Assembly (NCBI RefSeq): GCF_006716645.1
Contig: NZ_VFPL01000001.1
Span: 2,790,001 to 2,854,000, forward strand
Direction of reading: 5' to 3'
Length of the DNA: 64,000 nt
Source of the DNA: Arcticibacter tournemirensis
GTDB lineage: Bacteria; Bacteroidota; Bacteroidia; Sphingobacteriales; Sphingobacteriaceae
In this document: piece after piece, positions 1,974-63,261 of the stretch
How positions within the stretch are numbered: position 1 is the stretch's first letter
How the letters are laid out: each line of letters opens with the position of its first letter
The notes under the pieces: generated by a model
Database searches by the model: none
Told to the model about the DNA's origin: nothing
What the model saw: the letters and a program-made list of their open reading frames with translations, nothing else
Program-made: the position numbers and the translations under genes

Positions 1974-2084
1974 TTAATTTTTCCTTAGTTCGGCTGCCAG
2001 GGCGGCAATGCCTTTTTCTATACTGTCATACTTTTCCGCGAATTCCCGCACGCGGATCTTTTCACTTTCCTCTGTGGTATAGCA
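1974..2084 (-). CDS. traG: traG exon 3 (C-terminal 36 residues)
   Basis: The last exon of the split transfer ATPase. It begins directly after the 3' end of group II intron 2 (terminal CCTAC, last base 2085) and encodes CYTTEESEKIRVREF... to the stop at 1974. Joined to exon 2 it restores ...LEEYL-CYTTEES..., which matches the usual C-terminal tail of Bacteroidota TraG ATPases. An 88-codon open frame (1974-2240) also covers this stretch, but its first part is intron domain V/VI sequence and should not be treated as a separate gene. The exon lengths 1873 + 470 + 111 sum to 2454, a multiple of three, which supports the boundaries. Confidence 0.85.
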   Translation of the reverse strand, partial: CYTTEESEKIRVREFAEKYDSIEKGIAALAAELRKN

Positions 2085-2147
2085 GTAGGATAAGAACCCA
2101 GCGCCTTGCCACGTTTTACCGTGGTAGGTTTCCAAGAACTCTCCCCC

Positions 2148-2181
2148 GAACCGTACGTACCTGTCTCCAGGTATACGGCTC
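2148..2181 (-). ncRNA. group II intron 2 domain V
   Basis: A 34-nt hairpin beginning GAGCCGTATACC and ending GTACGTACGGTTC on the minus strand. It has the catalytic AGC triad in the first strand, the expected two-base bulge region and an apical GAGA-like loop. It lies 13 nt after the ORF stop, so domain IV is almost entirely coding. Domain VI follows and ends at 2085. Confidence 0.85.
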
Positions 2182-2194
2182 TCCATTAATTTAT

Positions 2195-4009
2195 TCAGTC
2201 TAGCTTGCCTGCGTGTATCTTGTCGTGACATTTTGAACATACTGCTAAGGTTTTTCTATTTCTTGCGATCATCCTCTTTTCCCAATCCTGTTTTCCCTTC
2301 AGGTCTTTGACTTTGCGTACATGGTGCATTTCCAATTTCTCGGTTGCCCCACATTGTTCACATTTCTCAGTTTGCAACCTTGCAATAAGGCTGTTTCTTC
2401 CACCTGTTGTTGTAATAGTTTTGGGAACGTTGTCAACGTAAGCTCCACGAGCTACTTTTTGTCTCTTGAAACCTTCCTTGTAGAAGCGTCTAAGGAGTGT
2501 TTTTCCTTCCTTATTTTTGTAGGGGATTGTAAACACACCGTTGATGCATCTCTTGGTTTTTTCCTTACCTACGGATGTCTGGTATTTAAGCGCATAGGTC
2601 TTATACATACTATATTCCATGATGTAAGAAAAGGATTGGACGTAAGCACTGTTATTGGCAATTGAGTAGTAATTAGCGAATCCTCGTAACTCGGAATTTA
2701 CTTGACTGATAATTTCTAGGTCGTCAAGATCTTTCATGTAGTAACGTGAACGTGGCTTCCATACTTCTTTACTTTTTTGCGTGACTAATTTCATCGCATT
2801 ATAGCTTAGAAGCTTTTTCTGCATCACTTCAGTTGTTACATAGAGCACGATTTTATCGCCGAAACACCTTACTGGTCTTCCTAACTTGTCTCGCTTTTTG
2901 TCATTGGATTGACGAACAAAGATGTCGTATCCTAGAAATTTAGCAGGTTTCTTCGCATTAGTTATCAGTGTTTTTTCGTCCGAGAGTTCTAGCTTTAGTT
3001 TTTCATTAAGATAATTCCTAATGTCATCCTTTATTGCTTTACAATCTTCCTTAGTTCCAATGACACCAATTAAAAAGTCGTCCGCGTATCTCACGTACTT
3101 CATTCTCTTGTAGAGACTATCCATCTTATTATAAGCTGGATATTTACTTCGTTCCTGCACCAACTCCTTAAGCTTTACAATCATTTGCTTTTTAACATTT
3201 TCATCTTCTTCCTCTTTTAGTTTCATCGCTAAGCGGGCTCTTCTTTGTTCGTTTAATGCCCAAGGTCGGTTGTGCCTTTTTCTTTCCCCTTTGTTGAATT
3301 TGTCAATATATTCCTTGATGTATTTATCAAACTTGTCAAGGTATATGTTAGCAAGAAGAGGACTTATAATTCCTCCTTGAGGTGTACCACTATATGTTCT
3401 GTGGAATACCCAATCTTCAACATAACCCGCATTTAAGAACTTCCTGATTAATCGGATGAATCTATCGTCAGCAATACGTTCCTTTAAGATGTCTATCAAT
3501 ACTTCATGATTGATATTGTCAAAAAATCCCTTTATATCGCCCTCAATAAACCATCTAGTAGCAGTGAATGATTGTTGTACACCTAGTAAAGCTGTATGGC
3601 AACTTCTTTTGGGTCTGAACCCGTGAGAAGTATATTCAAAACTGCCTTCATATATGGCTTCCAATATCATTCTGATAACTTCCTGCACCAGTTTGTCATC
3701 AAATGAAGGTATTCCAAGTGGACGCTTTTTACCGTTCTTTTTTGGTATATAAGTCCTTTTGGAGGGGTTTGGCTGATACGTTTCATTTCTGAGCGTATCA
3801 ATCAACCGTTCAATGCGAAGCATACTCATGCCGTCGATGGTTTTACCGTCAACTCCCGCTGTCATATTACCCACATTACTGTAGATGTTCTGGTATGCGG
3901 CATAGTACATTTCTTCATTGAACATAACCTTGTATAGCCTTTCGAATTTATAATCCGAGTTGCCGCTATGCTTGGCTAGACTGTTCAACACTTTTTCTGG
4001 ATTTCTCAT
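2195..4009 (-). CDS. group II intron 2 reverse transcriptase / maturase / HNH endonuclease
   Basis: An intron-encoded protein of about 604 residues that assists splicing and retrotransposition of its host intron. Visible parts: RT0-RT7 fingers-palm with KKNGKKRPLGIPSFDDK, YTSHGFRPKRSCHTAL, FIEGDIKGFFDNINH, SGTPQGGIISPLLANIYLD and the catalytic YADDFLIGVIG; a maturase/X region around LRGFANYYSIAN; and a C-terminal HNH domain with CEQCG, LEMHHVRKVKD and CSKCHDKIHAG. The frame extends three codons upstream to 4018, but the homologous start in the partner intron (MRSPQKVLNSL) aligns with MRNPEKVLNSL at 4009, which I prefer. All catalytic residues appear intact. Confidence 0.93.
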   Translation of the reverse strand: MRNPEKVLNSLAKHSGNSDYKFERLYKVMFNEEMYYAAYQNIYSNVGNMTAGVDGKTIDGMSMLRIERLIDTLRNETYQPNPSKRTYIPKKNGKKRPLGIPSFDDKLVQEVIRMILEAIYEGSFEYTSHGFRPKRSCHTALLGVQQSFTATRWFIEGDIKGFFDNINHEVLIDILKERIADDRFIRLIRKFLNAGYVEDWVFHRTYSGTPQGGIISPLLANIYLDKFDKYIKEYIDKFNKGERKRHNRPWALNEQRRARLAMKLKEEEDENVKKQMIVKLKELVQERSKYPAYNKMDSLYKRMKYVRYADDFLIGVIGTKEDCKAIKDDIRNYLNEKLKLELSDEKTLITNAKKPAKFLGYDIFVRQSNDKKRDKLGRPVRCFGDKIVLYVTTEVMQKKLLSYNAMKLVTQKSKEVWKPRSRYYMKDLDDLEIISQVNSELRGFANYYSIANNSAYVQSFSYIMEYSMYKTYALKYQTSVGKEKTKRCINGVFTIPYKNKEGKTLLRRFYKEGFKRQKVARGAYVDNVPKTITTTGGRNSLIARLQTEKCEQCGATEKLEMHHVRKVKDLKGKQDWEKRMIARNRKTLAVCSKCHDKIHAGKLD

Positions 4010-4571
4010 GTCTCTCACATTTTCCTTTAATCGTATTAAACTAAATTAACTGCCCCCCTTCGCCATGTACAAGGCTTTCCCTTGCTCGGACTACTACGGG
4101 GGCTCCGTTACCATATCGGATATTCAGAGGCAAATCCTCATAGCCACGCCAGTGGCATTCCGACTTAGGTAATCCCCATTTAGACATATAGTAACTATCT
4201 GGCGCGATAGATTGTCGGATGCGATTTTCGTCCTTTTCTGCTTGCTGCAGCTACGTTGTGGTTTGTTTATGCTATAACTACTACCTAACATTAGTATAGT
4301 ACCACATATATGACGTTAGTAACTGTCTTCCGTCATAGCCTCGGAACCGGCCGTTTAGACTATCGTTCAATCAATCCAGATTTCATCCTCATATCTACCT
4401 TTTCAACTTGCCACTCAGTCGCAACACGACAATTAGTTGACTTGTGGCTTTTCCGACATGCTACACTCCCCGTTCAGTTTCCATTCCGGATAAGTCGGCT
4501 GTTGATAGGCGTTATAAACACTTGCCTAGTGGTTGCCAAACCACATTTACTATATGCCCTTATGGGCGCAC
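4010..4571 (-). ncRNA. group II intron 2, 5' RNA domains I-III
   Basis: About 560 bases with no credible gene on either strand; the plus-strand open frame at 4310-4639 is a shadow. The region begins with the intron 5' end GTGCG and shares blocks with the corresponding part of the other intron (6964-7533), so it is structural ribozyme sequence (domains I-III). EBS1/EBS2 loops must lie here but I did not assign them. Confidence 0.75.
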
Positions 4572-5041
4572 GAGATATTCTTCCAATGAAAGTTCGTTCC
4601 GGTAAACCTTTATGGATTGGCCGCCCTGATCGATCATGACCTCCCGGTAGTTCCTGCCCGGTTCATTGGCCCGGTTTAAAGACAGTAGCAGCGTCTTTGC
4701 TTTATCCGGCATGCCCATTACCTGTTGCAGGCGCTCGAACTTACCGGCGAACTTGCGCATGTCCAGCAGAAGTTTGGTATCCGAAAGATTAATGACGGTT
4801 TCCCGTATGATTGGTGAACTGATCAGGTCATCCACCTCCTGGGTAATCAGGGCTGCTATTCCATTGAACTTCCGGACGGTCTTATAGAGGTATTTAATGA
4901 ATTCAGCCATCCCGGACTTCGCAATTGCCACCCAGGCTTCATCAATGGCCAGCATTTTACGCAGACCTTTGAGCTTTCTCATTTTTGAGATAAAAAGCTC
5001 CATGATAATGATGGTGACTGCCGGGAAAAGGATTGGATGGT
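4572..5041 (-). CDS. traG: traG exon 2 (Walker B / ATPase core)
   Basis: The middle exon, 470 nt, about residues 625-781 of the spliced protein. It begins within codon 625 (C from exon 1 plus AC here gives His) and ends exactly on codon CTC before intron 2. It encodes HHPILFPAVTIIIMELFISK, the Walker B segment KMLAIDEAWVAIAKSGM (Asp near spliced residue 658), a sensor-like ALITQEVDD, and the distal ATPase part FERLQQVMGMP ... LSLNRANEPGRNYREV. Open frame 4560-5165 includes this exon plus flanking intron sequence and is not an independent gene. Confidence 0.9.
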
Positions 5042-5102
5042 GTAGGCTAAGCGCCCGGCGCCTTACTCTATTACTAAAGCAGGTTTCCAAACACTCGCCT
5101 CC

Positions 5103-5136
5103 GAACCGTACGTACACGTTCCCGCGTATACGGCTC
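5103..5136 (-). ncRNA. group II intron 1 domain V
   Basis: A 34-nt hairpin starting GAGCCGTATACGCG and ending ACGTACGGTTC on the minus strand, with a GGAA-type apical loop and the catalytic AGC triad. It is identical at both ends to domain V of intron 2 and differs only in the distal stem, where changes in the two strands compensate, as expected of a functional ribozyme core. Confidence 0.85.
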
Positions 5137-5154
5137 TCCACTAATAATCGCAGT

Positions 5155-6963
5155 TTAACTTCCATAATGAATCTTCTTGTGACATTCTCGGCATACTGCC
5201 ATAGTTTTCCTCTTTCTTGTAATCATGCGCACTTTCCATTCTTCCATTCCTTTCGGAATGTCTTTCAGTTTGCGCACATGGTGCATTTCGAGAGTTGATG
5301 TTTCCCCGCATAGTTCACAAGTCAATGCATTCAGCCTGTCAATCAGGCTTGTCCGCATTCTGACTTGATAGTAATCGGGTAGTTTGTCGAAGAAGGCTTC
5401 TCTTGCTTCGGATTTTCTTTTAAAGCCGTTGTTGTAGAATGTGCGGTATCGGGTTTCACGTCTGCTATTGGTATAAGCGACGGTAAATACGCCATCCTTC
5501 ATGTATTTCCTACAAATGTTGGGTACAGTTGTACGGTACTTTGCTGCGAAAGTCTTGTACATGCTGTACTCCATAATGTGTTTGAACCTGTTTACGGTAG
5601 CAGCATTAAGGCAAATCGAGTAGTAGTTATAAAAGCCAAGTATCTCGGAATTGTATTTACTAAGTATCTCAAGGTCATCGTTAAATACCAAGCCCATGCG
5701 CTCTTTCGGTTTCCATTGCTCTTTGCCATTGTGAAGCCGAATATCTAAGACCTCATAGGCAAGCAGTTTCTTCCTAATTGTGTCATGAGGAATCCTGATG
5801 ACGATTTTCTTGTGTAACTGGCGTTTCATCTTCCCATTTACATCCCTTTTGGTCAGATCGGACTTGCGTACAGTGACATCAAATGAAAGGAATTTGGCAG
5901 GCTTCTCCGTATGGGTTATCAGCGTCTTTTCATCTGATAATACAAGCTGTAACTTATCATTCAGGAACTTAGTAATATCCTGTTTGATTTGCTTGCAATC
6001 AGCAAGACTGCCGATTACTCCGATGAGGAAGTCGTCTGCATATCTCACGTATTTGAGTTTTCTGTAGTCACTGTCCATTTCATCGCAGCTGGGAATCATG
6101 GCTCTTCTTCTATCAATCGCTTTAATGCGCTGTCCGATTAACTTTCTGTCGGCAACATCATCTTCGGCTCTGAGCATACTTAAAGCAAGTATCTTATCGT
6201 ATTCACATTCAAGGCGTTCTCGGTTTGGTTTCCGACCATTTCCTTTATCAAAGTTTTGGATGTATTCCTTTACGTACTTATCCAGTTTATCCAGATAGAT
6301 ATTAGCCAATATGGGGCTGATAATGCCGCCCTGTGGCGTACCGCTGTATGTTCTGTGAAATACCCAATCTTCGACATACCCCGCATTTAGGAACTTTCGC
6401 ATTAGCCTGATAAATCGGTCATCCGAGATGCGTTCTTGCAAGATGTTCAATAACACATCATGATTAATGTTGTCAAAGAACCCTTTAATATCGCCCTCGA
6501 TGAACCATTTGGCTCCGTTGAAAGTCTTGCTGACTTGTAGCATTGCAGTATGGCAACTTCTTTGGGGTCTGAAACCGTGTGAAGTATGCTCAAAGCTTCC
6601 TTCATATATGGCTTCCAGAATCATTCTAATCACCTCCTGCACTAACTTGTCATCAAATGAGGGTATCCCTAAAGGGCGTTTTTTACCATTTTTCTTGGGT
6701 ATGTACGTCCTTCGTGAGGGATGGGGCTGGTAGCTTTCATCCTTGATTGCACCAATTAGTTTTTCAATTCGGTCAAGGCTCATTTGGTCGATAGTCTGAC
6801 CATCTGACCCCTGGGTCATATTACCTGGCTTTGCGTAGATATTTTCGTAAGCGATGTAATACATTTCCTCGTTGAATAGAATACGATAGAGCCTTTCGAA
6901 CTTATAGTTTGAAAGTTTGCTATGCTCTGTTAAACTGTTTAATACCTTTTGCGGACTTCTCAT
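5155..6963 (-). CDS. group II intron 1 reverse transcriptase / maturase / HNH endonuclease
   Basis: 602 residues. It has the same domain order as its sister protein: RT core with KKNGKKRPLGIPSFDDK, HTSHGFRPQRSCHTAM, FIEGDIKGFFDNINHDVL, SGTPQGGIISPILANIYLD and catalytic YADDFLIGVIG; a maturase region around ILGFYNYYSICLNA; and a C-terminal HNH with CELCGE, LEMHHVRKLKD and CRECHKKIHYG. The RT core is nearly identical to the intron 2 protein, while the segment after the RT palm and the thumb/maturase region differ much more, so the two introns have diverged rather than being a recent tandem copy. No frameshift or missing catalytic residue is seen. The stop lies 18 nt before domain V. Confidence 0.93.
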   Translation of the reverse strand: MRSPQKVLNSLTEHSKLSNYKFERLYRILFNEEMYYIAYENIYAKPGNMTQGSDGQTIDQMSLDRIEKLIGAIKDESYQPHPSRRTYIPKKNGKKRPLGIPSFDDKLVQEVIRMILEAIYEGSFEHTSHGFRPQRSCHTAMLQVSKTFNGAKWFIEGDIKGFFDNINHDVLLNILQERISDDRFIRLMRKFLNAGYVEDWVFHRTYSGTPQGGIISPILANIYLDKLDKYVKEYIQNFDKGNGRKPNRERLECEYDKILALSMLRAEDDVADRKLIGQRIKAIDRRRAMIPSCDEMDSDYRKLKYVRYADDFLIGVIGSLADCKQIKQDITKFLNDKLQLVLSDEKTLITHTEKPAKFLSFDVTVRKSDLTKRDVNGKMKRQLHKKIVIRIPHDTIRKKLLAYEVLDIRLHNGKEQWKPKERMGLVFNDDLEILSKYNSEILGFYNYYSICLNAATVNRFKHIMEYSMYKTFAAKYRTTVPNICRKYMKDGVFTVAYTNSRRETRYRTFYNNGFKRKSEAREAFFDKLPDYYQVRMRTSLIDRLNALTCELCGETSTLEMHHVRKLKDIPKGMEEWKVRMITRKRKTMAVCRECHKKIHYGS

Positions 6964-7533
6964 AATGTCTCACACATTTTCCTTTATTAGCATTAAAAAC
7001 TATTAGCTGCTTCCCTTCGCCATGTACAAGGTGTTACCTTGCTCGGACTACTACGGAAGCTCCGTTACCATATCAGATATTCAAGGGACTGCTCCCTATA
7101 GCCGCGCCAGCGGCATTCTGACTTAGGTAATCCACGTTTAGCGGCATAGTAACTATGGCTTTGCAGATTGTCGGATACGACTTCCACCCTTTATTGCATA
7201 TTGCAATTGCGCTGTGATCTGTTCTTGCTCTCCCTTCTCAAAAACCAAAAGGAGAGTATCACAGTATGACGAGTTCAGTTGTCTTACGTCACAGTTACAA
7301 CTCGGAGCCGCTTGGGTTATCATTCAATCAGTATGGATTTTATCCTCGTATCTGCTTTTCATCCTTCTATTCAGTCGCAACCTGACAACTGGTTGACTTA
7401 TAGTTTTTGGTCGGCATGCTACACTCCCTGTCCGGTTTCCCTTTCAGATAAGCCGACGGATGATAGGCCATTTTGAACACTAGCCTAATACCCTGCCATG
7501 GGTATATTTACTATGCTGCCTTTACGTGCGCAC
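6964..7533 (-). ncRNA. group II intron 1, 5' RNA domains I-III
   Basis: About 570 bases holding the ribozyme domains I-III. Plus-strand frames at 7214-7396 and 7279-7476 overlap this structure and have no recognisable protein character. The stretch TTCGCCATGTACAAGG near 7016-7031 recurs in the other intron near 4060-4075. Confidence 0.75.
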
Positions 7534-9406
7534 GCTTCACATTGTCCAGCTCAAACACAATGAACCGTTCATTCAGCATATCCAGGTTTTCCCGCGCGTT
7601 CAGGAGATAATCGAACTCACCGCCTTTATAGTAGGGTGAAAGGACATAGAGGAACCCTTCAACATTAAAATCCCGGTCCTGAACCTTGCTTTCTGTCAGG
7701 ATCGCCCGGTAGTGCTTTTGCAGAAATTCATAATAGCTATTAAAGCAGGGAAATATTTCCGGGTTGCTGTCAAGATAGTCGTAGTAAAGCGTCAGGGAAT
7801 TCGAAATGGCCACATATTCGCTGCGTGAGTAGGCCTCATCTTCTTTTTTCCAAAGCGCCACCAGAAGCGTTTTCAAACTTTCCTTCTTTTCGGTATCCAG
7901 CACATCGCCGGAAGACAGGTAGAAAGGGTTAAAACGAATCGGATTTTCTTCGGTATAGATAAAGTAATATCCATTTAACAGATCACAAAGCCCCTTGTAA
8001 CTTCCTCCGATATCGATCACCACGCAATGGGTGCCCTGTTCGTAAAGCGTGCGAAGCATGTGGTTCATGAGCATTGACTTTCCGCCGCCGCTGCCCCCGC
8101 AAACAAAGAGGTTACGATTGGTGATCAGCCCGGATTTCATCGGCCCATCAAATAAATCAACTTTTACAGGTCTGCCCGAGAGCCGTTCCCCGAGCCGGAT
8201 ACCCTCATGATCAGACCGATAGTTGCCATCGGTATTTAAAAAGCATGCAGCTTGTTCCAGGAACGTATCAAAGGTGTCGTTCATTGGAAAGTCGGCCCCA
8301 TTTCCCGGAACGCCGGCAAACCAGATCTGCGCAGCACCGTCGGTTTCAAGCTTCGCCGTCGCGTCAAGCCTGGCTATAGCGGCTCCTGTCATAGTTCGCA
8401 CTTCCTGTAACAGTTCCGGTCTGTCCGTCCAGGCAAGGACATTAAAGTGAGCCTTTACGGGAAGCCGTTGCTGAGCAATTGCTTCATTAAGGTAATCGGA
8501 CACCGCATCCCGTGCAATGGCATTTTCCCTTGAATAGGCAGACAAGGACTGCAACCGTAACCTTTTACGTTCAAGTTCTTTCAGCGTCTTTTGACCATCC
8601 GCAATGAAAATGTATTGACTGTAAATGTGGTTACAAGGAAGCAATAGCCCCAGAGAGGACGCAAACCCGGTGCTAAACCTGGTCTGATCTGTGCTGTAGG
8701 GTTCATAAGTCATCCGGCTTGCGCAGAGGGACGGGAGATCTTCCACGTCAGCCAGCGTAAACAGCTGACACTGCTGATCGCCGATCCGTAAGTTGTTTTT
8801 CACGTGAACATCCTTCAGCATTGGCAGTTGATCCTTGCCGGTCAGCAGCATATATTGCTCGATGATGCCTGCCTGTTCCTTTGTTCCGGCAAGCTCATCA
8901 TCGGTTAACCTCCTGAGATGAATGAAGCCGCTGTCGGAAATAACGCGGGAGAAGCGTGCTGCGCTGTCCAGGAAATCATTAAAAAGTGCCTCGCTGATCA
9001 TCTGTTGCGGCACAATCGACTTTCGAAGAATATTGCTGTAGGCAGAGCCGGACAGTTTTCTTCCTTCCGGTTTTTTCGTAAGAAAGATATAGCAGCAGTG
9101 ATCGTAATAGGGGCGACCCTCGAAGTACCGGTTTGCAGAAGCCTCCAGCAAACTGATATTTTTGCGCTGATTCCTGCCTGTATACCGCCTTTCTGTAAAC
9201 CAGTCCTGTTTACAGAAGACACTATGAGCCGGAAGTACCCGGACCGCTTTTACCAGCGTTTGATGAATCGCCTCATAATCCTGGGAAGAACGGGTAAAGA
9301 TCTCCGGGAGGATCGCTTCATAAGTAATAGTGATGTCTCCCTGAGCGGACAGGATGGCATTATGCTCTACTTTAGAGAGCGGCAGAATTTTCTCTAAGGG
9401 CATCAT
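7534..9406 (-). CDS. traG: traG exon 1: conjugation ATPase (VirB4-like), N-terminal 624 residues
   Basis: First exon of the VirB4-type ATPase that powers the mating apparatus of CTnDOT-like elements at the inner membrane. It carries the N-terminal family domain (LEKILPLSKVEH... start) and Walker A GGSGGGKSMLMNH (Lys near residue 443), then KKEDEAYSRSEYVAISNSLT and FVVFELDN-type sequence (here FIVFELDNVK) up to the intron. Unspliced reading runs into intron 1 and stops at 7511, giving a protein without Walker B. Joining exon 1 (1873 nt), exon 2 (4572-5041) and exon 3 (1974-2084) gives 817 residues, the normal family length. The start overlaps traF by 4 bp (ATGA), so translation is coupled. Confidence 0.92.
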
Positions 9407-9732
9407 GGCGTGATCCTATCTTTTAACCGGGTGAATACTTTTCTTGATCTGATGCAGAGATAGTCCGGCAGACTGCGTTTCGCCAGGTACTTTCCCAGGC
9501 CATGTTCACCGAAGCGGCGGTTAAGCCGGAAGACTCCGGAGACAAGACCGGCCCCGCCTCCGAAAATCAGAGGCAGGATAATATAGAGGCTAAGCCCGGA
9601 AATGTAAAGAAGGGCGAAGACTATCAGCAGAAAAACCAGTCCGCCGGCCAGCCAGCCGATATACTGCCCGCGCAACCCCCGGAACTCAATAGGCTTGCCA
9701 ATCCCTTTGTTGATCTGATATACGGTAGCCAT
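9403..9732 (-). CDS. traF: TraF, DUF4133 family membrane protein
   Basis: 109 residues starting MATVYQINKGIGKPIEFRGL, the typical opening of DUF4133/TraF in Bacteroidota conjugation operons. Two adjacent transmembrane helices follow (about residues 24-65: IGWLAGGLVFLLIVFALLY and LYIILPLIFGGGAGLVSGV), then a basic cytoplasmic tail. The family is thought to be a small inner-membrane component of the transfer channel (VirB3-like position before the VirB4-like ATPase). It lies between traE (3-bp gap) and traG (4-bp overlap). Confidence 0.88.
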   Translation of the reverse strand: MATVYQINKGIGKPIEFRGLRGQYIGWLAGGLVFLLIVFALLYISGLSLYIILPLIFGGGAGLVSGVFRLNRRFGEHGLGKYLAKRSLPDYLCIRSRKVFTRLKDRITP

Positions 9733-9735
9733 AAC

Positions 9736-10080
9736 TTAAATGCCGAAGAAGGATTTGAGAACTGTGGCTACTACGACCAGAAAGATACAGGAGCCGAACC
9801 AGGCGGCTGCAACCTTGTTGGTGTCCGGCTCTCCCGCATTCCATTTGTTAAATACTTTCACGGCACCGATGATACCCACGACCGCACCGATGGCGTACAT
9901 CAGATCGCAGCCTGTGTCGAAATAGCCTTTAACTTTATTGGTTGCTTCGGCTATACCGGCATTGCCGTCCTGGGCGAATGAACTCAGGGAAAAGAAGCAA
10001 TTTGTCAGCAGCGCCGAGGCGAATAGTAAGGTGTTCAATAGTGTCTGTTTCTTAGACGAAAGGGTGTTGTGATTTTTCAT
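9736..10080 (-). CDS. traE: TraE, DUF4134 family membrane protein
   Basis: 114 residues with an N-terminal signal peptide (TLLNTLLFASALLTNCFFSL, cleavage near SFAQDG) and two further hydrophobic helices (CDLMYAIGAVVGIIGAVKVF and AAAWFGSCIFLVVVATVLKS). Size, topology and the block AVVGIIGAVKVFNKWNAGEPD fit DUF4134/TraE, a VirB2-like small membrane subunit placed before TraF. First recognised member of the cluster in the transcription direction. Confidence 0.88.
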   Translation of the reverse strand: MKNHNTLSSKKQTLLNTLLFASALLTNCFFSLSSFAQDGNAGIAEATNKVKGYFDTGCDLMYAIGAVVGIIGAVKVFNKWNAGEPDTNKVAAAWFGSCIFLVVVATVLKSFFGI

Positions 10081-34245: not shown

Positions 34246-36213
34246 TCAAGGAGATTGAGCTGACCGAATGTTCTCAACGCCTTCTGTTTGTTTTTGAACG
34301 AGCTCAAATATCTCCCGTTTGATCCATTGGTAATTTTCCTGAACGTCTACTGTGCTAACTTTTTTGATGATAGGAATGTGCTTGTACAAAATTTCGTCAG
34401 CTGCTATCGTCTGATGATCATTCTGAATCTCACAATGAAAGGCCTTAAGACTTATTTTCTCTTCAGGATTATCAGCTATTGTTCCGACAAATTCCCCTGA
34501 GGATAATGATGCAATTTTCGCAGCAGGTACAGCATAGTCTAATTGGGTAGATTTCGTCAGGGAAGTATCGCTGCTGTTAATGCTCGTGCTGCTTTTATCC
34601 TGAAGGATTTTGCCAAGCATTTCCGAGAGCTTACGCGCAGTGTCCCCTGTTACCTGACCACTGATGATGTTCCCCACAATGCCTGTTATCACATCTGCCT
34701 GTTCTGAGCCGTAATCTTTTTTTAGCTGATTAAAATCCTGCACAGCCAGGGTAGTAGCGACTTTATTACTACGCGCAGTTGCGATCAGGCTGTCGATATT
34801 GTTAAAATATATAGTAGGGAACTCGTCGAATATCAGGCTGCATTTTAGCTGATTTTTCCGGTTAACAAGTTTGATCATGCGGGAGATGTATAAGGACAAA
34901 ACAGCCCCGTAGACCTGAAGCTTCTGCGGGTTATTTCCCATGCAAACAATCTTCGGTTCTTCCGGATTATTGACATCCATGGTAAAATCATTACCGGACA
35001 ACACATAATACAACTGAGGTGAAGAAAGACGTGCCAGGCCGATCTTTGCGGAAGCAATCTGTCCTTCCAGTTGCTCTTTAGCCTTATTCTGAAAGGCAGA
35101 AACAAAAGGATTGATCAGCACTTTGATCTCTTCTTCCTGTCCAAGCACATGAAAAAGCTTCTCGTACTCGACCTGCATAAGTTCGATAACATGAGGCAAA
35201 GTGCAGTACTTTCCATCCTGATACTTCCGTAGATACCAGATAATAGCCGTTAGAAAATTAATAGGCGATTCTACAAAGAAGTCACCTTGCTTTTTAATCC
35301 AGTCCCGGTTCAGGCCCAGCATGATTGTCCTGCTTGCTTCCGTTGCATCGGTAATGTCATCCATTGCCTTTGGGTCTAAAGGGTTACACCTGTGAGTATG
35401 GTTAAGATCATCGAAATTGATCACATAGAAGGACGGCTTTACTTTATAGTTGCGGTAATACTTCAGTAATTTATTGTAGGCAATCTTGCTAAGGTCGTCA
35501 TATTTGAAGTCATACAGAAACATCGAAAAGCCCTTCCGGATGTGTTGGTCAATAATATGCCGGATCACGAAATAAGATTTACCGGCACCCGGCGTTCCTG
35601 CTACAAGTATCCCTCTGAAAGGGTTGATGATATTGATCCAGCTATCCCTTACCTGCTTCTTTAATCGATATTTTGCTGGAAGGTTAATGGAGAACTCGTT
35701 TTCCAGGAGCCGTTCCTCCTGAGGGAACGTCTCGTTTTCTGTGTTGAAAATATCCTCCTGCTGGCCGACCTTGAGGATCCGGGAAAGCCTGGCGCCTCCG
35801 CTCAGCATAAGCAGATATCCGGTCACAGTGGTCAAGATATAACATAGAACAACCGCCTCTTCCGGCAGAGACACATAAAAATAAAGGATACTGGCGAAGA
35901 ACAACAGTAAACCCAAACTGATGAGTGGCATGATGTTTCCCCATGAAACTTTCTCTTCCTTCCTGCCTTTTGCACCTACAAGGGATATTGCAAGAAGAAG
36001 CAGGGCAGCAATCTTCGGCTTCATGATGTTACTGAACAGTCCGGTTTTGCTGATATTCAAAATGATCCGGTTTGTAATATCTGCCGTCCATCCCCACTGA
36101 TAAAAGGCTGCGTAGCAACTGATATAGAAATGAATAGCTAATATGGCAATACTGATATACCTTGTCAGATCTATGATCTTGCGTAATCCCTGAATGTCTT
36201 CTCCTGTTTGCAT
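34246..36213 (-). CDS. mobC: MobC, type IV coupling protein (VirD4/TraG-like ATPase)
   Basis: 655 residues. N-terminal membrane region with about four helices (ISIAILAIHFYISCYAAF, IAALLLLAISLVG, LISLGLLLFFASILYFYV, VVLCYILTTVTGYLLML). P-loop ATPase with Walker A GTPGAGKSYFVIRH, Walker B-type LIFDEFPTIYFNN, and the motif TTLAVQDFNQLKKDYG. It docks the relaxase-DNA complex to the transfer channel at the inner membrane. Ends the mobA-mobB-mobC cluster; it lies 26 bp after mobB. Confidence 0.92.
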   Translation of the reverse strand: MQTGEDIQGLRKIIDLTRYISIAILAIHFYISCYAAFYQWGWTADITNRIILNISKTGLFSNIMKPKIAALLLLAISLVGAKGRKEEKVSWGNIMPLISLGLLLFFASILYFYVSLPEEAVVLCYILTTVTGYLLMLSGGARLSRILKVGQQEDIFNTENETFPQEERLLENEFSINLPAKYRLKKQVRDSWINIINPFRGILVAGTPGAGKSYFVIRHIIDQHIRKGFSMFLYDFKYDDLSKIAYNKLLKYYRNYKVKPSFYVINFDDLNHTHRCNPLDPKAMDDITDATEASRTIMLGLNRDWIKKQGDFFVESPINFLTAIIWYLRKYQDGKYCTLPHVIELMQVEYEKLFHVLGQEEEIKVLINPFVSAFQNKAKEQLEGQIASAKIGLARLSSPQLYYVLSGNDFTMDVNNPEEPKIVCMGNNPQKLQVYGAVLSLYISRMIKLVNRKNQLKCSLIFDEFPTIYFNNIDSLIATARSNKVATTLAVQDFNQLKKDYGSEQADVITGIVGNIISGQVTGDTARKLSEMLGKILQDKSSTSINSSDTSLTKSTQLDYAVPAAKIASLSSGEFVGTIADNPEEKISLKAFHCEIQNDHQTIAADEILYKHIPIIKKVSTVDVQENYQWIKREIFELVQKQTEGVENIRSAQSP

Positions 36214-36239: not shown

Positions 36240-37151
36240 CTAAAGCCGCAATCCCTGGTCGTTCCTCCTCCTTTTTTTCTTCCTCCTGAAAACAGCGGGA
36301 GAATAATCCGGCTCTGGTTTGAGCAATAAGGAGTCCAGCAGAGATTCTTTAACAGGCTCGTGTTCCGGGGAAAGTTGATGCGAATAGATAGTATTTTCCG
36401 TGTTTATCCCTCTTCCTTTCCGCATCAGCAGCCGTTGCTCTACCGTTCCATTCTTCATGGTATTAGTGTATAAAAATGATTCTGTAAGTCCCCGCTCAAA
36501 ACCGAACTTTTCATCAAAGATCCGTTCACCCGATGCTGCAAATGCTTTGCGGTCGAACTGACCAATCCTAAGAGAATGCTTTTGATTCCTGCCTCTCGAC
36601 TTGTTCATCGGGCTGAGTTTGATGCGATTGGTGATATCCTTCCTGCTGACAACTACCTGCACGTGCCACTGGTCCCCTTCCTTCAATTCACCACGTTTCT
36701 TTACCCCCTGCTTCACTTCCGAATCTTTATGTGAATAGTACCGGTGCTCTTCGACTTTACCGAACCAAAGTAGGTCTTTGCTGCTTTCAACCCCGGGCCG
36801 TTTGAAATTCCTCGCATATTCATCCATCACTGAGATTGAATATTCCTTCAACTTTTCTTTGATTTGGGCTTCTCCATATCGCTCCTTCAGAAAAGCCAGC
36901 TCCTTCCTGCTGGGGCTGATATTGATGAGAAAGAACTTTGCATCAGTCTTGCTTAGTTTGGCGACATTGTTATCCAGTGCAATACGCACTTCGTAAGATG
37001 GAACGTCCCTCCGTTCCTGGTTGAACCAGTATTCCGGATCTTCCTCTCCGTATTTCGGTCGCACCCTGTTTTCTTTTTCAAGGTAATGCACTAACTGTGA
37101 GCTGCTCCCTTTGTTAGTCCCTTCTTCACTATCTGTAATATTGATATGCAT
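36240..37151 (-). CDS. mobB: MobB relaxase (DUF5712-type mobilisation protein)
   Basis: 303 residues. Opens MHINITDSEEGTNKGSSSQL, typical of this Bacteroidota relaxase group. The probable metal-binding segment is GDQWHVQVVVSRKDITN: it has His-x-Gln where classic relaxases have His-x-His, which I recall as normal for DUF5712. Other conserved blocks: KFFLINISPSRKELAF, MDEYARNFKRPG, EEHRYYSHKDSEVKQG. A basic tail (FRRKKKRRRNDQG) probably binds DNA. It would nick oriT and lead strand transfer. Three bases separate it from mobA. Confidence 0.85.
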   Translation of the reverse strand: MHINITDSEEGTNKGSSSQLVHYLEKENRVRPKYGEEDPEYWFNQERRDVPSYEVRIALDNNVAKLSKTDAKFFLINISPSRKELAFLKERYGEAQIKEKLKEYSISVMDEYARNFKRPGVESSKDLLWFGKVEEHRYYSHKDSEVKQGVKKRGELKEGDQWHVQVVVSRKDITNRIKLSPMNKSRGRNQKHSLRIGQFDRKAFAASGERIFDEKFGFERGLTESFLYTNTMKNGTVEQRLLMRKGRGINTENTIYSHQLSPEHEPVKESLLDSLLLKPEPDYSPAVFRRKKKRRRNDQGLRL

Positions 37152-39009: not shown

Positions 39010-42000
39010 ATGTTAGATAAGATCATTTATTTTTCAATAAAAAATAAACTGGTGATCGGGTTGTTTACGCTTGCATTAATTTGCTGGGGCGTATATTCTG
39101 TAACAAAGCTGCCTATAGATGCAACTCCCGACATTACAGACAATCAGGTAATGGTCATCACCGTATCACCTACGCTGGCCGCACAGGAAATAGAGCAGCT
39201 GGTCACTTTCCCGGTCGAGCAGACGATGGTGAGTATACCCGGGATTAAGGACATGCGTTCGTTCTCCCGATTCGGGCTTTCAATTGTAACGATAGTTTTT
39301 GAAGAGAAAGTCGATATTTACTGGGGACGACAGCAAGTGCAGGAGCGCTTGTCTATTGCGGCTAAAAACATACCGCAAGGGGTAGGCACGCCTGAAATGG
39401 CCCCCCTTACCACTGGTCTGGGCGAAATCTTTCAATACGTAGTTCATGCAAAGAAAGGTTACGAAGATAAATACAATGCTACGGAGCTGCGCACCATTCA
39501 GGACTGGATTATTAAGCGTCAGCTGCTCGGAACTCCCGGAGTGGCTGAAGTAAGCGGTTTCGGAGGATTTGTCAAGCAATATGAAATTGCCATAGATCCT
39601 GATAAGATCGGCAGCCTTGGAGTTACCATTACAGATATATTCAATGCACTCAACCGTAACAATCAGAATACCGGCGGGGCCTATATAGACAAAGGGCCTA
39701 ACGCTTATTTTATCCGGAGCGAGGGTCTGGTTAAAAATATAGAAGAAATAAACAGGATCGTTGTAAAAACGAATAACGGCATGCCGGTGCTGATCCGTGA
39801 CCTGGCCAAAGTACAATTTGGCAACGGCGTGAGATACGGTGCTGCCACCAGAAACGGGCAGGGCGAAACGGTAACAGGGATCGTAATGATGCTGAAAGGA
39901 GCGAATTCCTCTGAAGTAATCAGCGACGTGAAAGAAAGGATCACACAGATCCAGAAGACACTTCCTGAAGGTGTGGTCATAGAGCCCTTTCTTGATCGCA
40001 AGAAACTCGTTGATAATGCGATCAGTACCGTAACGACTAACCTGATTGAGGGAGCCCTGATTGTTATTTTTGTATTGATCCTATTCCTGGGTAATCTTCG
40101 CGGCGGCCTGGTGGTAGCCTCCGTAATTCCCCTTGCCATGCTTTTCGCTATTTCCATGATGAACCTGTTTGGTGTTTCGGGTAACCTGATGAGCCTGGGA
40201 GCTATCGATTTCGGGATTATCGTTGACGGCACAGTGATCATTGTGGAAGCTGTGATGCACCGGATCAAAGGCGGTGGCGGGAAGTATCCGGGGATCTCCG
40301 TGCTCAGTCGGGCACAGATGGATGAGGAAGTATATGAATCGTCCCGTAAGATCCGCTCGGCTGCGGCGTTTGGTGAGATCATTATCCTGATCGTCTATCT
40401 GCCCTTACTTACTTTGGTAGGCGTCGAGGGGAAGATGTTTATGCCGATGGCCCAAACGGTATCCTTTGCAATACTGGGAGCATTCCTGCTTTCATTCACC
40501 TATGTGCCCATGATGTCAGCACTGGCTCTCAGCCGAAACACCACGCATAAACACAATTTCTCCGACCGGATGATGGAAGCTATACAGCGTGCTTACACAC
40601 CGATTATTGAAGGTGCAATGCGCCGAAAATTACTGGTAGCAGTTATCGCTGTTTCCTTATTCACTGTCACCCTGTTCGCGTTTACACGTATGGGCGCTGA
40701 GTTTATTCCACAGCTCGATGAAGGTGATTTTGCTGTGGAAACCCGCGTTCCGGTCGGAAGTTCTATCAATCAGATGATCGACGTTTCTCAAAAAGCGCAG
40801 ACGATCCTGCTAAAGAACTACCCGGAAGTCAAACAGGTAGTTAATAAGATCGGTTCAGGAGAGATTCCCACAGATCCGATGCCCATTGAGGCAGGAGATA
40901 TGGTGGTTACGCTCAAGCCAAAAAAGGAATGGCGAAGCGCAGAAAACAGGGAAGAACTAATCGAAAAAATGCAGGCATCCCTGTCTGTGATCCCCAATGC
41001 AACATTCAGTTTCCAGCAACCCATCCAGATGCGCTTTAATGAACTGCTAACCGGCGCTAAGCAGGATGTTGTACTGAAAATTTATGGCGAAGACCTCGAT
41101 GTTTTGTCGGACCTGGCCCGTGAGATCGGCCGGAAGATCAGGCCGGTTGACGGAGTGGAAGATCTCTATATAGAGCAAATTACCGGGCTGCCGCAAATCG
41201 GCATCCAGTTTAACAGAGATAAGATTGCGTTATATGGATTGAACATTGAGGATGTCAATGCTGCCATAGAAGCCGCATTTGCAGGTAAAATGGCGGGGCT
41301 GGTATATGAGGGCGAACGCCGGTTCGATATGGTGGTACGCCTGGACCGGGCCAACCGGAGAGATATTACCGATGTCCGAAATTTATACATCGGTACACCT
41401 ACAGGTCAGCAGATCCCGCTGAGCGAAGTCGCCGAAATATCGTATAAACCCGGGCCGGTGCAGATTCAGCGGGACAACGCTAAAAGACGCATTACTATCG
41501 GCTTTAATGTGCGTAACCGTGATGTCAAGAGTATCGTCACTGATATCCAAAATGTAATTGCCCGTAGAGTAAATATGCCTGCCGGTTATTATGTAACCTA
41601 TGGCGGACAGTTTAAAAACCTGGAGGAAGCGAATGCGCGTTTAGCAGTGGCCCTTCCTGCTGCCTTGCTGCTGATCCTGCTGTTACTGTATTTTACATTC
41701 CGATCTGTAAAGCAGGGACTGCTGATCTTTACCGCTATCCCGCTGTCGGCAATTGGTGGAGTGTTTGCCCTGCTGATCCGGGATATGCCCTTTAGTATCT
41801 CTGCCGGTGTTGGTTTTATTGCCTTGTTTGGGGTTGCCGTTCTCAATGGTATTGTTCTGATCGCAGAATTTAACCGTTTGGAAGCGGAGGGTGTCTCCGA
41901 TATCTACGAACGTATTCGCCTGGGCACAAAAGTAAGATTACGTCCAGTCCTGATGACTGCTACAGTTGCCTCGTTCGGATTCCTGCCGATGGCGCTTTCA

Positions 42001-43410
42001 GGGTCGTCAGGGGCAGAAGTGCAACGTCCACTGGCTACAGTAGTAATCGGCGGGCTGATAACAGCTACTATTCTCACACTCGTGGTTTTGCCGGTTTTAT
42101 ATATCTATTTCAGTAAATCAAAAGGGAAACTAAATAAACAACCGGCGACCCTGTTAACAATCTTTATTGCTTTAGGATTTACACTGCCGTTTAACTCAAA
42201 AGCACAGTCGGCGGCAACTCCGGCCAACAGGGTCCTCACCCTCGAACAAGCGATTAGTGAAGCCTTACAGAATAACAACGAGATCAGAATTGCTGCTTAC
42301 CAGATCAGTGAACAACAGGCCCTAAAGCCAGGAAGCATCAGCCTGCCCAAAACGGAATTATCTTATACGCAGGGCGTGGTCAGCAACCCGACGATTTCCG
42401 ACAATATTATTTCTGCCAGTCAGCGGATTGATTTCCCGACACTGTATGTGAGCCAGGGCAGATTAGCCAATGAGCGTGTCGCCAGCAGGGTGAAATATAA
42501 AGCGGTCAAAGAAAATGAACTCAGGGAAAATGTAAGACGCGCTTATCTCCAGTATCAGTATGTTCTTGGCAAAAGGGAGCTGCTGATGCAGTTGGACAGC
42601 ATTTACGCCAACCTGAGCAAGGCCAGTGGAATAAGGTACCGCACGGGCGAATCTACGAGTCTGGAGAATATGACTTCAACCGTCCAGTCCCGGCAAATAA
42701 AAAATGAGCTGGAAAAAAACGGTGCTGATCTGACAATAGCGGCAGAGCAGCTGCGGACGCTTCTGAATACTACCGACAACATTACCGTTGCCGATAAGGA
42801 TCTTGTTCCGGGAACACTGGTTTTACCACTGGAAGACACATCTTCCGTTTCCCGGAACCCGACCATTGCTTATTTAAAGCAGGAACTAAATGTTAGTAAA
42901 CAGATGACCTCAGTAGAGAGAAACCGGATGCTGCCTGAAATTATCCTGGGATATAATGGTCAAACCTATAAAGGTGTGCAAATGATCAATGGTGATGAAC
43001 GCCGGTATACAGGCAGCGACCGTTTCAATTTTTACCAGGTTGGCCTTGCCATTCCAATCTTTCCGGGAGGTTACCGTTCAAAGATCAGGTCATTGAAAGT
43101 CAGTGAACAGATTGCACGGTCACAGGTAGAACTGGCCACGGTAAACCTTAACGGTCATTTGAAGCAGATGATCCAGGAGTATCAGAAGCTAAAAAAATCG
43201 GTGGAGTATTATAGATCGGAGGCCCTGCCTCAGGCCGATCTGATCATCGGAAACGCAGAGAAAGCTTTCAGAAGCGGGGATATTTCCTATACCCAATACC
43301 TTCAGAATCTGACTATATCCACGGATATACACACCCAGTATCTGGATAACCTCTTTAATTATAATCAGGCGATAATCTCTATTGAGAGTGTTTTAGGATC
43401 CATACAATAA
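39010..43410 (+). CDS. CusA/CzcA-type RND metal pump fused to a TolC-like outer-membrane domain
   Basis: 1466 residues. Residues 1 to about 1035 form a heavy-metal-efflux RND protein with 12 helices; landmarks are KLPIDATPDITDNQV, the proton-relay helix GAIDFGIIVDGTVIIVEAVM, and ALFGVAVLNGIVLIAEFNRL. Residues about 1065-1466 are an outer-membrane efflux protein (LTLEQAISEALQNNNEIRIA ... GLAIPIFPGGYRSKIRSLK). The junction (about 1038-1066) contains a signal-peptide-like segment, TLLTIFIALGFTLPFNSKAQ. With the downstream adaptor it forms a tripartite exporter for divalent or monovalent metal ions. Such fusions are known in Bacteroidota. No Met cluster was assigned, so the ion is undecided. Confidence 0.93.
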   Translation: MLDKIIYFSIKNKLVIGLFTLALICWGVYSVTKLPIDATPDITDNQVMVITVSPTLAAQEIEQLVTFPVEQTMVSIPGIKDMRSFSRFGLSIVTIVFEEKVDIYWGRQQVQERLSIAAKNIPQGVGTPEMAPLTTGLGEIFQYVVHAKKGYEDKYNATELRTIQDWIIKRQLLGTPGVAEVSGFGGFVKQYEIAIDPDKIGSLGVTITDIFNALNRNNQNTGGAYIDKGPNAYFIRSEGLVKNIEEINRIVVKTNNGMPVLIRDLAKVQFGNGVRYGAATRNGQGETVTGIVMMLKGANSSEVISDVKERITQIQKTLPEGVVIEPFLDRKKLVDNAISTVTTNLIEGALIVIFVLILFLGNLRGGLVVASVIPLAMLFAISMMNLFGVSGNLMSLGAIDFGIIVDGTVIIVEAVMHRIKGGGGKYPGISVLSRAQMDEEVYESSRKIRSAAAFGEIIILIVYLPLLTLVGVEGKMFMPMAQTVSFAILGAFLLSFTYVPMMSALALSRNTTHKHNFSDRMMEAIQRAYTPIIEGAMRRKLLVAVIAVSLFTVTLFAFTRMGAEFIPQLDEGDFAVETRVPVGSSINQMIDVSQKAQTILLKNYPEVKQVVNKIGSGEIPTDPMPIEAGDMVVTLKPKKEWRSAENREELIEKMQASLSVIPNATFSFQQPIQMRFNELLTGAKQDVVLKIYGEDLDVLSDLAREIGRKIRPVDGVEDLYIEQITGLPQIGIQFNRDKIALYGLNIEDVNAAIEAAFAGKMAGLVYEGERRFDMVVRLDRANRRDITDVRNLYIGTPTGQQIPLSEVAEISYKPGPVQIQRDNAKRRITIGFNVRNRDVKSIVTDIQNVIARRVNMPAGYYVTYGGQFKNLEEANARLAVALPAALLLILLLLYFTFRSVKQGLLIFTAIPLSAIGGVFALLIRDMPFSISAGVGFIALFGVAVLNGIVLIAEFNRLEAEGVSDIYERIRLGTKVRLRPVLMTATVASFGFLPMALSGSSGAEVQRPLATVVIGGLITATILTLVVLPVLYIYFSKSKGKLNKQPATLLTIFIALGFTLPFNSKAQSAATPANRVLTLEQAISEALQNNNEIRIAAYQISEQQALKPGSISLPKTELSYTQGVVSNPTISDNIISASQRIDFPTLYVSQGRLANERVASRVKYKAVKENELRENVRRAYLQYQYVLGKRELLMQLDSIYANLSKASGIRYRTGESTSLENMTSTVQSRQIKNELEKNGADLTIAAEQLRTLLNTTDNITVADKDLVPGTLVLPLEDTSSVSRNPTIAYLKQELNVSKQMTSVERNRMLPEIILGYNGQTYKGVQMINGDERRYTGSDRFNFYQVGLAIPIFPGGYRSKIRSLKVSEQIARSQVELATVNLNGHLKQMIQEYQKLKKSVEYYRSEALPQADLIIGNAEKAFRSGDISYTQYLQNLTISTDIHTQYLDNLFNYNQAIISIESVLGSIQ

Positions 43411-57661: not shown

Positions 57662-58270
57662 TTACTCTAAGTTGGCGGTGGGGTAAAACGAACACCCCCC
57701 AGCCCCCCGTCCCAATAATGACAACAATAGGATAAAAAATAGTTCTTTTAACCAAAGGAAGGGCTCTATCAGGCCAATAGAAAACAATTTACTTTCTGAT
57801 AAATTACCAAATTTTACAAAAGCCGAAAAAGATCTTGAAACAGACCTTGATACTGAGAAAGTATTTAGGCCGCCCTTGCGCTCTTCCGTGAAATCCCACC
57901 AGCGTTTGCCTGTATCGCTATGCTCGATGAAATGCACCAGCAGGCGGTAGGAGTCTTCCACACAGGGATCGGCCCAGGCCCCCGCATGCCGCTCGAAAGC
58001 GTCGAACAGTTCGACGGCCGTCCTGCCCCGCAACTGTTCCAGCGAATAATAGCCCTGGGCGATCAGTTCTTCCGCGAAGTTGATACCCAGCGAAGGAATG
58101 CGCTGAAATTCCGCCAGCGCCAGTAGCTCACGGGTCCGTTCGGGAGAAGCCTTCAGGGCGGCAGCTACCTCATCCGCGGCCATGCTCTGCATCTGTTTCT
58201 GCGTAAGCCTTTGGGCCTTCAGCACCTGTTTCTCTGCCGATGTAAGCTTATACTCAACCCTCTTTTTCAT
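57662..58270 (-). pseudogene. Cdd1-type helix-hairpin-helix protein, copy 1, chimeric C-terminus
   Basis: Residues 1 to about 132 match the intact copy at 62764-63261 (RIPSLGINFAEELIAQGYYS, LRGRTAVELFDAFERHAG, RLLVHFIEHSDTGKRWWDFT). After WWDFTEERK, near base 57875, the similarity ends and the frame runs into unrelated sequence (GGLNTFSVSRS... SLLGRGAGGCSFY), so the last ~30 residues of the normal protein are lost. The helix-hairpin-helix part is intact and could still fold. Upstream sequence (TTTTCATGATCTGTAGG and beyond) is also shared with copy 2. Confidence 0.8.
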
Positions 58271-62763: not shown

Positions 62764-63261
62764 CTACTTGCTTTGCAGATAAGCTTTCATTTTCGGATAA
62801 GCTTCGGTTTCATACCAGGCTTTTGACGGCCGGTTGGCCGGGAAGCCGTACCGGGCACGGTAAGCCTTGCGTTCTGCCGTGAAATCCCACCAGCGTTTGC
62901 CGGTATCGCCATGCTTGATGAAATGCACCAGCAGGCGGTAGGAATCTTCCACACAGGGATCGGCCCAGACGCCCGCATGCCGCTCGAAAGCGTCGAACAG
63001 TTCGACTGCCGTCCTGCCCCGCAACTGTTCCAGCGAATAATAGCCCTGGGCGATCAGTTCTTCCGCGAAGTTGACCCCCAGCGAAGGAATGCGCTGAAAT
63101 TCAGCCAGCGCCTGTAGCTCGCGGATCCGTTCGGAGGAAGCCTGCAGGGCGGCAGCCACCTCATCCGGAGCCATCTCCTGCATCTGTTTCTGCGTAATCC
63201 TCTGCGCCTTCAGCGCCTGTTTCTCTGCCGCTGTAAGTTTATAATCAACCGTCTTTTTCAT
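62764..63261 (-). CDS. Cdd1-type helix-hairpin-helix protein, intact copy
   Basis: 165 residues. Basic N-terminus (KKTVDYKLTAAEKQALKAQR), then helix-hairpin-helix IPSLGVNFAEELIAQGYYSL, LRGRTAVELFDAFERHAG and Cys-containing DPCVEDSYRLLVHF, ending with RYGFPANRPSKAWYETEAYP. Matches Cdd1/pathogenicity-locus proteins (from memory). Function unproven, possibly nucleic-acid binding. The first ~130 residues are nearly identical to the chimeric copy at 57662. Confidence 0.82.
   Translation of the reverse strand: MKKTVDYKLTAAEKQALKAQRITQKQMQEMAPDEVAAALQASSERIRELQALAEFQRIPSLGVNFAEELIAQGYYSLEQLRGRTAVELFDAFERHAGVWADPCVEDSYRLLVHFIKHGDTGKRWWDFTAERKAYRARYGFPANRPSKAWYETEAYPKMKAYLQSK

Follow-up and report, generated by a model that had tools for sequence, protein, structure and literature searches.

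Among the known systems closest to the introns reported here are Ll.LtrB and Ef.PcfG of Lactococcus and Enterococcus, which reside in conjugation genes and are targeted through EBS1, EBS2 and delta pairing (PMC5072309, PMC6003770). Introns of the Ll.LtrB type are described as homing to the same relaxase site in homologous genes, across genera (PMC5072309), and Ll.LtrB as restraining its own relaxase and conjugation (PMC6003770). A gene annotated as TraG/TraD family, pXO1-42 of Bacillus cereus group plasmids, is the host of the group II introns B.th.I6 and B.c.I16 (PMC3261151). In the account of PMC4649490, the ribonucleotide reductase gene of Trichodesmium carries three group II introns. Bacterial group II introns in general are reported to lie mostly outside housekeeping genes, many of them among mobile DNAs (PMC4424553), and those of gut mobile elements are treated in general terms in PMC6907783. 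In B. thetaiotaomicron, ltrA and traG are neighbours in a published table (BT2297/BT2298; PMC10434189), possibly representing a traG with a single intron. A term search of the text of PMC8919778 returned no mention of traG. Our literature search, which covered mostly papers available without subscription, found no paper on a conjugation gene that is interrupted by two introns of group II.

We analyzed a window of 64,000 nucleotides from Arcticibacter tournemirensis that contains such a gene: a TraG/VirB4-type ATPase gene, traG, of a Bacteroidetes-type conjugative element, in three exons on the minus strand with two group II introns between them. The introns resemble Ll.LtrB and Ef.PcfG in their nearly end-to-end LtrA homology, HNH domain, targeting by EBS1, EBS2 and probably delta, and residence in a conjugation gene. 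Ll.LtrB and Ef.PcfG differ in that the host gene encodes a relaxase, there is one intron per gene as described, the hosts are Firmicutes, and splicing and mobility have been established experimentally. B.th.I6 and B.c.I16 share the type of host gene, but are class B introns with a 3' extension in Gram-positive hosts, and their description mentions no second intron (PMC3261151). The Trichodesmium gene is likewise a bacterial protein gene with more than one group II intron (PMC4649490), although it is not a conjugation gene; the Trichodesmium twintron, for its part, is nested. The introns of the window lie side by side, and a twintron arrangement is absent because the 470-nt exon 2 separates them. 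What is unusual is that a single conjugation gene holds two introns of different kinds, several introns per bacterial gene being already known.

Structure of traG and its introns

The three exons (minus strand) are 1873, 470 and 111 nt long and together make 2454 nt, encoding 817 residues and a stop, which matches the 818 codons counted in an earlier sequence-only reading of the locus. Exon 1 (7534..9406) supplies 624 codons plus one base and scores 703 bits against TIGR03783, the profile for TraG family conjugative transposon ATPases (profile 10-638; cut-off 261.55); exon 2 (4572..5041) scores 205 bits (profile 640-795), by itself below that cut-off; exon 3 (1974..2084) consists of 36 codons and the stop. 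None of the exons contains a stop or a frameshift. They align to consecutive stretches of Pfam P-loop_TraG, exon 1 to positions 1-223, exon 2 to 225-380 and exon 3 to 381-412 (26.1 bits, cut-off 25.8), so that one codon, position 224, is split at junction 1 and none is missing at junction 2, which falls between codons. The base C at 7534 is identical to the last base of intron 1 (5042), and junction 1 could therefore equally be placed one base farther 5', leaving the product unchanged (His codon).

The exons separate the two nucleotide-binding motifs, as the sequence-only reading had stated. Walker A (GGSGGGKS, residue 437) is encoded by exon 1 and Walker B (IDEAW) by exon 2. Translation of an unspliced message ends at 7511, after 631 amino acids and ahead of Walker B. 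Given this stop and the distribution of the motifs, full-length TraG should require removal of both introns, and we infer that its synthesis would depend on two splicing events.

Intron 1 (5042..7533, minus strand; 2492 nt) and intron 2 (2085..4571, minus strand; 2487 nt) each start with GTGCG and end with CCTAC, in keeping with the conserved group II ends (GUGYG ... AY). These boundaries, first drawn in the sequence-only reading, agree with Rfam family RF00029, with the exon alignments and with the guide test described below. A covariance-model search placed domains V-VI at 5042..5138 in intron 1 (RF00029, 59.5 bits, E 3.8e-9) and at 2085..2183 in intron 2 (59.7 bits, E 3.3e-9), both on the minus strand and in line with the proposed domain V positions; no other match in the window reached the gathering score of 40.

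There are two intact maturase genes, one inside each intron, on the minus strand. Intron 1 encodes a protein of 602 amino acids (5155..6963; Pfam RVT_1, Intron_maturas2, AI2M-like_HNH) and intron 2 one of 604 amino acids (2195..4009), and each unbroken frame contains reverse transcriptase (YADD), maturase and HNH domains by Pfam. The best relative of solved structure is LtrA for both, over residues 7-598 (E 3e-144 for intron 1 and 4e-151 for intron 2), the next best having E values of 3e-42 and 3e-39. Against TIGR04416 (cut-off 300) the intron 2 maturase scores above the cut-off (310.6 bits) and the intron 1 maturase just below it (293.3). The two proteins are 60% identical and fall in different clades of the maturase tree. 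The sequence thus confirms that traG is interrupted by two different full-length LtrA-like group II introns, which we take to be of the mitochondrial-like / IIA class (LtrA type).

Other genes of a conjugative element surround traG. Upstream of traG are two tra genes on the minus strand, DUF4133 (9403..9732; Pfam PF13571) and DUF4134 (9736..10080; PF13572). TraJ, TraK and TraM are located to the left of traG, TraM half a bit below its NCBIfam cut-off and above its Pfam cut-off, and no further transfer genes were found in this left flank. A MobC-type coupling protein (34246-36213, minus strand) and a MobB-type relaxase (36240-37151, minus strand) are recognized by the NCBIfam pair NF041326/NF041495 over cut-off. 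The cargo includes chromate and heavy-metal efflux genes. One of the window's frames, a CzcA-type efflux pump of 1466 amino acids (39010-43410), runs about 420 amino acids past the CzcA profile and may be a fusion with an outer-membrane efflux protein. Positions 57662-58270 and 62764-63261 encode a pair of small, very similar proteins (MKK.V.YKLT.AEKQ...), the first with a differing C-terminus, which suggests a duplication or an interruption. Near the element, at about 2770149-2771285 of the contig (L241:149-1285; G000:C1), is an RVT_1 reverse transcriptase with a low group II maturase score.

Introns in traG genes of related loci

We retained the 80 loci with the closest maturases out of 536 confirmed, and because the window's own maturases were the queries, this set is biased toward traG introns. 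In 25 of the 80 loci traG is interrupted: at the intron 2 codon (site B) in 14, between KYL and LKT in six, at the intron 1 codon (site A) in two, and at two further places in one and two loci. The 14 site-B loci span Bacteroidales, Flavobacteriales and Sphingobacteriales (two viewed from the 3' side only), and site-B introns also occur in two family genomes, G548 and G650. Two KYL-site cases were met in one genome, G020; an assembly overlap at its contig ends was ruled out, intron ends being present at both. Five more of the 80 loci have a traG nearby that is not interrupted by the intron. For 30 of the 55 loci whose intron does not interrupt traG one flanking piece was scanned, giving a Pfam family in 19 and none in 11. 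These 19 flanks contained a coupling protein/MobC (6), an SNF2-type or other helicase (4), an integrase (3), an ArdC/PolyVal peptidase (2) and, once each, a relaxase, TraJ, a topoisomerase and a MutS-domain protein.

Introns of this lineage have taken at least five separate traG codons, and one of these codons was reached by two branches. In a quick maturase tree without bootstrap, intron 2 clusters with the site-B introns, and intron 1 with L096, L105 and L116, apart from the site-A introns L091 and L114. This separation (two changes forced by supported branches) indicates at least two separate arrivals at site A. The closest relatives of the intron 1 maturase are L105 and L116 (82%); the L105 intron is without its 5' part, and the L116 maturase (Mucilaginibacter psychrotolerans) has an internal stop. 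Four of the occupied traG positions rank at percentiles 0.19, 0.34, 0.03 and 0.11 for conservation (sites A, B, D and C), which is only suggestive of a preference for conserved positions; according to PMC2814812, group II introns show no such bias.

Among the 25 interrupted relatives, 17 could be viewed over the whole gene, and none of these has a second intron; one of them, L071, is frameshifted in exon 1. Two loci, L133 and L138, were suspected of carrying two introns since the match to traG ends at about profile position 650 after one intron. The fetched stretches contain no second domain V or intron maturase, and we counted both as truncated: they have one intron at profile position 504, and traG has lost its 3' part beyond about 5900 in L133 and 5451 in L138. 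L133 also contains an Rfam abiF RNA (568-532). A Bacteroides faecis plasmid (NZ_CP103143.1; L239) has a maturase flanked by a 'conjugal transfer protein TraG' and a separate 'conjugal transfer protein', with piece lengths compatible with the KYL site (lengths only, unaligned). These traG genes of Bacteroidota share the intron lineage and the gene with the window, including the 14 loci at the intron 2 codon, and differ in having one intron per traG, which the B. faecis record annotates as separate proteins. Single traG introns are common in this intron lineage, and two in one traG were met only in the window. The earlier remark that a doubly interrupted ATPase is unusual therefore stands for the pair of introns and not for traG introns as such, nor for bacterial genes with several introns.

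The association with traG seems particular to this intron lineage. A survey of 295 genomes of the class, not steered by traG, gave a match in 38 genomes besides that of the window, and for 29 of these the single best domain V locus was inspected. None of the 29 loci lies next to traG; a contig end shortens the view in 13 of them. In an even sample of the class, 395 genomes were searched for TraG and two candidates scored in each, and no clear intron-split traG was found outside the window's genome. A general role of traG as a hotspot for group II introns is thus unsupported.

The same genome (G000) holds further group II introns. In a second traG (L034:4219-9089; G000:C1, about 1452218-1457088), a third, unrelated group II intron interrupts Walker B between EEAW and KAI. 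This intron, whose 554-aa maturase is very different from the two of the window, occupies a sixth traG codon. All three introns known at first were in traG, and the idea that every group II intron of this genome is in traG was refuted by a count of seven clear group II maturases. The other four (L201-L204; G000:C1 1508162, 3296239, 3427608 and 4944689) lie outside traG, with a 454-aa frame and identical reverse-transcriptase stretches of 1035 nt. The one of these that was scanned (L203) matches another Rfam type, group-II-D1D4-3.

Guide sequences and target sites

Without presupposing any structure, we located the guide sequences by comparing intron columns with 5' exon bases among 69 related introns, which between them have 64 different 13-base targets. 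The 25 covarying runs with the highest scores were confined to two loops, one covarying with exon positions -7 to -13 (EBS2) and the other with -1 to -6 (EBS1), and the best runs were 73% and 81% paired versus 42% and 44% expected. On the minus strand, intron 1 has EBS2 (AGTTGTA) at 7296..7302 and delta (T) plus EBS1 (TTTTGA) at 7238..7244, and intron 2 has EBS2 (TTCCGAG) at 4340..4346 and delta (T) plus EBS1 (TAGGTA) at 4282..4288; in intron 1, EBS1 lies in a hairpin loop. The delta-delta' pair, between the base 5' of EBS1 and the first base of the 3' exon, is a feature of IIA introns. Its column was the second-best single column, with 58.7% Watson-Crick pairs versus about 37% expected; the pair is T-A in intron 1 and T-T in intron 2.

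The guides of each intron were scored along 27 uninterrupted traG genes (about 2,480 positions; more divergent and partial TraGs excluded). The intron 1 guides placed site A first in 10 of the 27 genes and within the top 1% in 19, with a median rank of 2 and a worst rank of 355. The intron 2 guides placed site B first in 2 of 27 and within the top 1% in 23, with a median rank of 4 and a worst rank of 218. When the guides were swapped between the introns, the median ranks were 1640 and 1299. Each set of guides singles out its own site and fails when swapped, which is consistent with the arrival of both introns in traG by retrohoming.

Both the EBS1-IBS1 and the EBS2-IBS2 pairings are thus supported by covariation and by rank, and both are weak with the window's own exons. 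The own-exon pairing score of intron 1 is 14, among the lowest 14 of the 69 introns, and that of intron 2 is 9, tied for the lowest, versus a median of 18; only 3 of 7 EBS2 positions of intron 2 pair with its own exon. The best empty-allele sites score 21 (intron 1) and 20 (intron 2), and many empty alleles pair better with each intron's guides than its own exons do. Both introns of the window are mismatched at -1, as are 8 of the 69; intron 2 is mismatched at -1 and +1, a combination found in 4 of 69.

Uninterrupted alleles and the condition of the gene

We consider it probable that two LtrA-type introns retrohomed separately into one traG, that both are expected to splice, and that they persist through precise excision. 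The main rival, which we regard as unlikely, is a decaying gene: after arrival by retrohoming, one or both introns would now splice poorly, and traG would be turning into a pseudogene. The weak splice-proximal pairing in both introns would fit such decay, but equally poor pairing occurs in other introns of the lineage. The other observations that bear on it come from relatives of the gene.

A search for empty traG alleles, proposed in the sequence-only reading, found exon 1 matches at E 1e-60 or better in 205 of 399 family genomes; among the matches listed, every traG except that of the window (634 aa) has an open frame longer than 800 aa. Of the 29 uninterrupted alleles nearest to the window, 28 have a gap of 3 nt between exons 1 and 2 and one has no gap there, whereas the gap between exons 2 and 3 is 0 nt in all 29. 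The continuity of the family sequence over both junctions is therefore borne out by spacing as well as by profile. A genome of the same genus (G005; L012) has an intact traG allele with identical spacing, and the nearest two alleles, L172 and L173, are uninterrupted and share 71% and 70% identity with the window over exon 1.

Compared with the nearest empty allele, pN and pS are 0.20 and 0.83 in exon 1, 0.11 and 0.79 in exon 2 (83% identical), and 0.29 and 0.61 in exon 3 (36 codons, 56% identical). The low pN relative to a nearly saturated pS shows the signature of past purifying selection on the traG exons, although at this level of pS the selection is not datable relative to the intron insertions. 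An idea of relaxed constraint, raised by changes in 13 of 58 exon-2 columns that are invariant among 26 reference genes, was dropped because L172 and L173 are 79-83% identical to the window in exon 2.

Two further points might favor decay. The codon at junction 1 is His in the window, and Asp in 26 of 27 uninterrupted genes. The case for a necessarily damaging His is weakened by variation at this residue in the 29 nearest empty alleles (D in 20, S in 5, N in 2 and G in 2), nine of which carry a residue other than D. Some one-intron relatives also look broken (the frameshift in L071, and the loss of 3' traG in L133 and L138), but in the window itself the exons have no stop or frameshift, and the maturases and domains V are unbroken. 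The evidence for selection on the exons likewise argues against decay.

Discussion

The reading that we favor is that two mobile introns, guided by EBS1 and EBS2 and probably also by delta pairing, entered two sites in traG by separate retrohoming events, each bringing its own reverse transcriptase/maturase/endonuclease. Both would splice out of the traG message, each presumably aided by the maturase that it encodes, to yield the 817-residue TraG. We propose that the introns persist because precise excision keeps the transfer gene working while the element carries them to new hosts.

Splicing might instead be a regulator, the two introns and their different maturases acting as a two-step brake on TraG and hence on transfer of the element. 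Both introns must go before Walker A and Walker B can share one full-length protein, and there is precedent in Ll.LtrB, described as lowering relaxase mRNA and conjugation (PMC6003770). However, the TraG relatives among the matches listed in the family search are free of introns, and a mild cost without regulation accounts for the same anatomy. We think this role quite unlikely; the idea that splicing controls transfer is speculative and draws on analogy. Assembly of TraG from separately translated pieces without splicing is very improbable: an open frame does cover each exon, but for exons 2 and 3 this frame begins within an intron, at 5165 and 2240, the two Walker motifs would sit on different chains, and the exact intron boundaries favor splicing.

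A bolder proposal, doubtful in our view, is that LtrA-like introns in Bacteroidota land preferentially in traG, and that two stacked introns with non-interchangeable maturases form an AND gate on conjugation. If this were true, transfer of the element would be conditional on two splicing systems. Independently of this proposal, a TraG gene that an annotation breaks into two or three pieces may prove whole once its message is spliced. With several branches of one lineage homing to different traG codons, and two of them coexisting here, the gene offers a natural test case for the persistence of group II introns in bacteria. It opens to testing whether intron load limits the spread of conjugative elements, and how two related maturases may discriminate between introns in one message.
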